Shown: positions 48,194-59,365 of the stretch, piece by piece
Layout of the letters: every line of letters starts with the position of its first letter
Numbering within the stretch: the first letter of the stretch is position 1
Assembly (NCBI RefSeq): GCF_040546685.1
Contig: NZ_JBEPOH010000001.1
Location: 1,116,001 to 1,180,000, forward strand
Length of the DNA stretch: 64,000 nucleotides
Direction of reading: 5' to 3'
Source of the DNA: Variovorax sp. OAS795
GTDB lineage: Bacteria > Pseudomonadota > Gammaproteobacteria > Burkholderiales > Burkholderiaceae_C
Translations under genes and position numbers: made by a program
Notes under the pieces: model-generated
What the model saw: the letters and a program-made list of their open reading frames with translations, nothing else
Database searches by the model: none
What the model was told of the DNA's origin: nothing

Positions 48194-48252
48194 GCCCCGA
48201 TTGTCGCAGGGGGACCGTGCTTTCTTTTCGAGTGCTGCTGTATTGCGCTCTT
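48194..48252. other. hemE upstream region
   Basis: About 60 bases between the hemE start and the composite repeat. It should hold the hemE ribosome site; no strong promoter motif is evident. Confidence 0.4.
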
Positions 48253-48523
48253 GTTCAGGGCGCTCCTGTTCGGGGGCGCGTGCACAGGCCACCGGGTACT
48301 CCCCTCCGCGAATGTCCCCCGCCTTCGGCTCCTCCTTTATTTCGCTGCGGGGAGCACCCGGCGCCCTGTGCCCACTAAGCGCGGCGCTCGTGCTGGCCGA
48401 TCAACCGGTGCTCTGAACAACACTCCCGCTGGCGGGGTGCCTTGCGTAGCGAAATCAAGGAGGAGCCCGAAGGGCGGGGGACATTCGCGGAGAAAGGTAC
48501 CCCGTCGGCGGGAGTGCGCCACC
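48253..48523 (+). repeat. Composite paired-hairpin repeat, copy 1
   Basis: This copy matches the reverse complement of 59094-59350 along nearly its full length (GTTCAGGGCGC at one end, GGGAG-GCGCCAC at the other). It holds two hairpin units. Unit 1A is 48281-48372 (arms with CCGGGTACTCCCC and GGGGAGCACCCGG). Unit 1B is 48422-48513 (arms with ACTCCCGC and GCGGGAGT). The units have opposite orientation, and each has the shared loop core GCGAATGTCCCCC...CTCCTCCTTTATTTCGC (variants). Inner mini-hairpins lie at 48321-48329 (GCC-TTC-GGC) and 48465-48475 (GCCC-GAA-GGGC). A spacer containing CTCGTGCTGG and GATCAAC is shared with copy 2. No transposase is nearby. Confidence 0.9.
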
Positions 48524-48543
48524 AACAGCAGGAACCAGCCGGT

Positions 48544-59066: not shown

Positions 59067-59365
59067 CCTTTCGTGCATTGACTTGTGCTGTGTCGTGGCG
59101 CGCTCCCGCCGACGGCGTGCTCTGCTCCGCGAATGTCCCCCGGCCTGCGGCCTCCTCCTTTATTTCGCTGCGCAGAGCACACCATCGACGTGAGCGTTAT
59201 TCGCAGCGGTCGTTGATCAGCCAGCACGAGGGCAGCGCCTTGTGTGCACAGGGCGCCGGGTGCTCCCCGCAGCGAAATAAAGGAGGAGGGCGAAGCCCGG
59301 GGGGCATTCGCGGAGGGGAGTACCCGGTGGCCTGTGCATGCGCCCTGAACAGCAGACGAACGAAC
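59067..59365. other. Intergenic region occupied by the composite repeat
   Basis: About 300 bases between the convergent creatininase and threonine-dehydratase-like genes. Except for about 27 bases on the left and 15 on the right it consists of the composite repeat copy 2. Confidence 0.8.
59094..59350 (-). repeat. Composite paired-hairpin repeat, copy 2
   Basis: Reverse-oriented relative of 48253-48523. Unit 2A is 59101-59195 (arms with GTGCTCTGC and GCAGAGCAC). Unit 2B is 59243-59340 (arms with CCGGGTGCTCCCC and GGGGAGTACCCGG). Inner mini-hairpins lie at 59142-59152 (GGCC-TGC-GGCC) and 59288-59298 (GGGC-GAA-GCCC). The spacer between units holds GATCAGCCAGCACGAG. Unit 2B corresponds to 1A and unit 2A to 1B of the other copy. 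Differences between the corresponding arms are mostly compensated on the opposite arm. Confidence 0.9.

Follow-up and report, generated by a model that had tools for sequence, protein, structure and literature searches.

A composite repeat of paired, strand-specific hairpin units in Variovorax and related bacteria, probably mobile

The 64-kb window (the whole analyzed stretch, 64,000 nucleotides from Variovorax sp. OAS795) contains two copies of a 260- to 290-bp element, at ∼48252 to 48528 and ∼59089 to 59351, which lie in mutually opposite orientation and carry two hairpin units each. In copy 1, unit alpha (48281 to 48372) has its purine, or folding, strand on the minus strand and unit beta (48422 to 48515) on the plus strand, and a spacer (48373 to 48421) occupies the interval between the two matches. 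In copy 2, beta (59102 to 59195; purine strand minus) comes first, followed by the spacer (59196 to 59244) and alpha (59245 to 59338; purine strand plus). A covariance model of one unit, R1, built from 35 sequences that included both units of copy 1, detected exactly four units in the window at E values up to 10, with scores of 86 to 92 bits (88.1 and 85.9 bits for alpha and beta of copy 1, and 88.3 and 91.5 bits for alpha and beta of copy 2). E values from R1 are rough, and alignment A3 was fitted to the same model. RNA folding of the purine strand gave z scores from −4.9 to −7.8, and none of 200 shuffles folded as well: alpha of copy 1 reached −60.9 kcal/mol (z, −7.7), beta of copy 1 was folded as 48400 to 48520 (z, −4.9), and beta and alpha of copy 2 had z scores of −7.8 and −7.6. 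The four R1 units and their better-than-shuffled folds bear out an earlier note on this DNA, which had described two opposite copies with two hairpins each; its account of a nearly constant loop core combined with differing stems also holds as written. In Rfam searches of the window, only tRNA passed the gathering threshold and the element was unmatched; a relaxed threshold added two matches at chance level.

Read on the purine strand, each unit begins with an outer stem of ∼22 pairs, continues through a G.A / pair / A.G step into a GCGAA/TTCGC helix, and opens into a large internal loop, in which ATAAAGGAGGAG faces CGGGGGACA, before closing in an inner stem of variable length. Covariation was assessed in a purine-strand alignment of 35 units (A2) and a pyrimidine-strand alignment (A1) of 37 of the 40 representatives drawn from 302 distinct units. 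In A2, 90.2% of cells were paired, versus 58.9% after shuffling and 37 to 40% after sliding; the covariation score was 0.751 versus 0.192 in the control, and changes occurred on both sides at every outer-stem pair outside the core helix. The corresponding values in A1 were 83.9% paired, 56.2% shuffled, and 39 to 43% slid, with one weak control, as further pair types hardly exceeded the shuffles (43 of 500 as high). R1, a covariance model of the kind suggested in the earlier note, describes one unit, with heavy covariation, a long outer stem, a conserved internal loop, and a variable inner stem. One loop pair, counted on the pyrimidine strand of the 302 units, was C.T in 263, T.C in 28, T.T in 6, something else in 5, and C.C in none; read on the purine strand, C.T and T.C become G.A or A.G. 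In the T.C variant, GGAGG is shifted to the opposite side of the loop. The purine internal loop contains AAGGAGG, which matches the core of a Shine-Dalgarno sequence exactly.

Wobble pairs identify the strand that folds. On the pyrimidine strand of the 302 units, A.C mismatches outnumbered G.T by 692 to 69, a ratio of 10.0 against 2.02 for the largest shuffled value, and the 40 representatives gave 93 to 27 (largest shuffled ratio, 1.87). The same bias is present in both unit types (282 to 21 in alpha and 329 to 24 in beta). At loci outside model building, G.T pairs on the purine strand numbered 132 versus 29 A.C (ratio, 4.55; largest shuffled, 1.61), counted over the 69 of 74 rows that have AAGG at the core position, the other 5 being left out. 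We therefore conclude that the purine strand of each unit is the folding strand. The folding strands of alpha and beta are opposite strands of the composite, each towards its own 3′ side, and single-stranded DNA consequently fits at least as well as mRNA. The structured RNA offered as an alternative in the earlier note is possible, its fold being strand specific; the opposed folding strands of the two units favor recognition of folded DNA strands.

The composite consists of one alpha and one beta unit facing each other across a spacer of ∼45 nt, with short GCGCCCTGAACA-type ends. Among 100 distinct pairs of neighboring units less than 600 nt apart, the pyrimidine-type unit came first in 98, the remaining two being one ++ and one −− pair, and the gaps were mostly 99 to 103 nt. 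A further 42 loci showed the usual arrangement in 27 of 31 pairs; three exceptions came from loci L395, L400, and L415, and the fourth (L398) was one unit matched on both strands. When 117 pairs were typed by arm sequence, 84 were alpha/beta, 1 was alpha/alpha, none was beta/beta, and 32 had an untyped member. The inverted hairpin pairs with preferred spacing, likened earlier to a REPIN/BIME layout, are accordingly real. One hairpin has been lost in some copies in an alignment of 20 own-genome loci, and lone units are common in certain genomes; a unit is thus not always seen as part of a pair. Many copies in that alignment end in the inverted terminal motifs TGTTCAGGGCGC / GCGCCCTGAACA. As read from the window sequence (plus strand), copy 1 starts with TGTTCAGGGCGC and a similar second motif, TGTTCGGGGGCGC, at 48252 to 48279, a pattern that recurs at the ends of other copies, and finishes with a degenerate motif at 48517 to 48528; copy 2 has a degenerate left motif at 59089 to 59101, both degenerate motifs having been compared against other copies, and a right end, GCGCCCTGAACA, at 59340 to 59351 that is common to other copies. 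In many cases the end motifs occur two or three times in succession towards the outside, as at 48252 to 48279 and in other copies. At two loci, genes lie between units. On a Brachymonas MAG contig (L092, 6569 to 7568), facing units with 849 nt between their cores flank a TumE toxin gene (PF20126; E value, 1e-16) and an HVO_A0114-type HTH gene, as if these were carried as cargo; in Xylophilus sp. Leaf220 (L096, 4572 to 5408), a DUF2306 membrane-protein gene lies between units whose cores are 705 nt apart.

The repeat extends well beyond the two copies in the window and occurs in relatives, so the refuting outcome named in the earlier note (no further copies in the genome and none in relatives) does not apply. 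The 6.09-Mb genome of the host contains 28 exact core units (13 forward and 15 reverse; 0 for a reversed control pattern) and 47 BLAST pieces matching the element, which was also matched by BLAST in 50 of 61 genomes of the genus. R1 surveys, in which 10 to 20 candidates were scored per genome, found matches in 114 of the 250 host-family genomes (75 of 141 genera), in 36 of 198 genomes of a second family, f17 (8 of 54 genera), which we infer from carrier names to be Xanthomonadaceae, and, across the phylum, in 11 of 398 genomes, all within these two families. Among the matches listed, carriers include Ramlibacter, Rhodoferax, Hydrogenophaga, Pseudorhodoferax, Xylophilus, Brachymonas, Lysobacter, Stenotrophomonas, and Pseudoxanthomonas. 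The top genome had up to 71 matches, a count that includes some units matched on both strands. Loci fetched by pattern, likewise from among the matches listed, favor intact cores because the core was required. Three large Variovorax replicons (plasmids) carry the element at 14 places, and the stretches inspected there bear no annotated features.

Both window sites were compared with orthologous loci, in which the flanking genes run on at both sides. For copy 1 (site 1), both flanks were present in 19 of 30 loci and the element in 5 of these 19, one of them holding half of it; 13 loci without it have gaps of 6 to 60 nt, and at one (L253) the gap is 501 nt long and lacks a core. For copy 2 (site 2), both flanks were present in 26 of 30 loci and the element in 8 of the 26; 16 loci without it have gaps of 15 to 73 nt, and two (L276 and L277) have gaps of 114 and 161 nt without a core. 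On the flank trees, at least three changes are needed at site 2, also when well-supported branches alone are counted, and four at site 1, two of them by supported branches, site 1 being poorly resolved. The three changes at site 2 can equal one gain and two losses, which leaves the distinction between gain and loss uncertain. By eye, no target duplication was seen at either site, where the flanks are too divergent to fix the ends of the element. In one genome (G029), the hairpin-free gap at site 2 (L266) retains two GCGCCCCGAACA-like motifs, which may be what is left of an element that was lost. These filled and empty orthologous sites, along with the inverted pairing and the extragenic position, support the earlier suggestion of a mobile composite repeat.

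The element avoids divergent gene pairs; for all position and direction counts, genes were called with our own GC-frame script rather than taken from annotation. From 228 cases, 40 at edges and 13 apparently within genes were set aside; 60 elements or single units lay between convergent genes, 100 between tandem genes, and 15 between divergent genes, versus 129, 390, and 102 adjacent gene pairs in the background from pattern-fetched loci. Divergent intervals are thus depleted (15 of 175 versus 102 of 621). Direction is biased as well. Between tandem genes, beta came first along transcription in 46 of 49 cases with both units typed (of 61 tandem pairs, the other 12 included a unit that was left untyped). 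When gene calling was stricter and each site was counted once, 66 of the 86 typed pairs were within the length and distance limits and yielded 54 sites, of which 36 were tandem, 14 convergent, and 4 divergent. Transcription passes beta before alpha at 34 of the 36 tandem sites (binomial P = 2e-8), L036 and L065 being the exceptions. Copy 1 follows this rule, and copy 2 sits between convergent genes. The bias favors a role for transcription, either in insertion or in later tolerance, and could stem from selection on mRNA rather than from insertion.

Selection on mRNA is central to the leading rival, that the repeat works as an RNA device at the 3′ ends of genes (an attenuator, an RNase III site, or a barrier to exonucleases), which selection maintains site by site and ordinary recombination has mainly spread. 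The avoidance of divergent genes and the fixed direction at tandem sites speak for it, as do the stable folds and the precedent of other repeats acting on transcripts: according to excerpts of a review of MITEs, transcripts are cleaved by RNase III at Correia-element repeats, and ERIC at 3′ ends has an effect on mRNA (PMC10969869). In the favored direction, however, mRNA exposes the folding strand of alpha only, whereas beta is equally wobble-biased on the antisense strand; moreover, sites differ between genomes, and many orthologous sites are empty. We consider this explanation unlikely.

Still less probable is that the element is a canonical REPIN mobilized by a Y1 (RAYT) transposase now lost or encoded at another place in the genome. 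The element resembles REPIN/BIME in its two inverted palindromes with a spacer (spacings of 71 or 110 bp are given for Pseudomonas fluorescens in excerpts of PMC3116915), extragenic position, many copies, and compensated stems, and a Y1_Tnp match is present in 58 of 61 genomes of the genus. It differs in the length of its units (∼95 to 105 nt, versus 21 to 65 nt for REPs in excerpts of PMC6006769), its large invariant internal loop, its two unit types, its fixed direction relative to transcription, and the absence of a GT[AG]G head and of a Y1 gene beside copies. Among the 302 units, 15 have this head no more than 12 nt from the 5′ foot when read on the purine strand and 28 when read on the pyrimidine strand; the reverse-complement control motif gave 13 and 2, respectively. 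A link to a RAYT-type transposase, for which the earlier note suggested looking, was not found: none of 50 Y1 loci had an R1 unit (E value up to 1) within ∼1.5 kb on either side, and 5 of 31 carriers had no Y1 match, including one genome that is 100% complete and has 14 exact cores (G080) and another that is 99% complete (G035). Conversely, the 11 genus genomes in which BLAST did not match the repeat all have a Y1, and a RAYT is supported neither in cis nor by co-occurrence. One locus (L083) has a weak Y1-like ORF ∼5 kb from a unit, detected with a flawed profile that was built from mixed strands and was not relied on. The only Y1_Tnp match in the host genome (L031) has no unit nearby, and its neighbor is presumably a glutamate synthase gene. 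The Variovorax Y1 reads NHFH and YIDLNP; a table in the excerpted part of PMC6006769 marks a subclass with NHYH and YVDLNP as lacking REPs, and our guess is that the Variovorax protein belongs there. No other enzyme was found as the mover. Hairpins of IS200/IS605 and TnpA class 3 are similar in being strand specific with conserved unpaired positions, and excerpts of PMC6006769 describe TnpA class 3 genes as flanked by atypical structures that are sometimes multicopy; those hairpins flank a Y1 gene, whereas the units described here lie beside none of the 50 Y1 loci.

The element is likewise short, noncoding, dispersed, and intergenic with inverted ends, as Correia and ERIC MITEs are, but it has strand-specific folds at the level of the unit and a conserved loop, and target duplication was not seen. 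A MITE origin, in which an ordinary insertion sequence lost its transposase gene and its remaining ends are recognized as double-stranded DNA, is improbable: the presence of two unlike ends, each with short inverted motifs, and the two loci with units flanking genes (L092 and L096) would suit it, but duplex recognition predicts neither a strand-specific wobble bias nor compensated stems of free sequence, and the loci inspected showed no transposase between the two units of a pair. No parent insertion sequence with the same ends was found in the fetched loci looked at.

Several other candidates were set aside. Phage carriage was rejected, with 0 exact pattern matches in viral contigs and no BLAST match in phage records. 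Same-direction units around genes at two loci (L361 and L355), considered as integron-like cassettes, look like single units after ordinary genes. The consensus of intrastrand triplex repeats published in the excerpted part of PMC4666352 differs, and none of six genus or family names looked for occurs in the paper on GTAG/CGTC repeats (PMC3733652). Among the matches listed for core words in open-licence papers, only a 10-letter word was present, under unrelated titles, and the titles and abstract openings of open-licence papers on small repeats of Variovorax or Comamonadaceae, among the matches listed, do not describe the element.

We lean towards reading the repeat as a nonautonomous mobile element of a new family, REPIN- or MITE-like, on the basis of computed properties: how it folds and on which strand, the pairing of alpha with beta, its occupancy of some orthologous sites and absence from others, and where and in which direction it lies with respect to genes; its patchy spread among genomes also counts for a mobile element. 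An enzyme supplied in trans might recognize each unit by its folded purine strand, in the form of single-stranded DNA or of an RNA copy, with the invariant internal loop as its landmark, and the element would be pasted downstream of genes; in mRNA, the long hairpins could act as a processing site or exonuclease barrier. A bolder version, which we regard as possible and put forward tentatively, is a new mobile class with large folded-strand ends, a conserved purine internal loop, an enzyme other than Y1-RAYT, and transcription-coupled insertion that places beta first downstream of a gene, for example, via an RNA copy or single-stranded DNA behind RNA polymerase.

RAYT transposases are the usual explanation for repeats of this kind. 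The family described here occurs in many genera of two bacterial families and has a far more elaborate conserved fold, and its presence in genomes without a detectable RAYT may therefore be a sign of another mobility enzyme. The bias in direction, 34 to 2, links a dispersed repeat to transcription, and sites with and without the element, combined with its one-way direction relative to genes, may lead to a new way of moving DNA.
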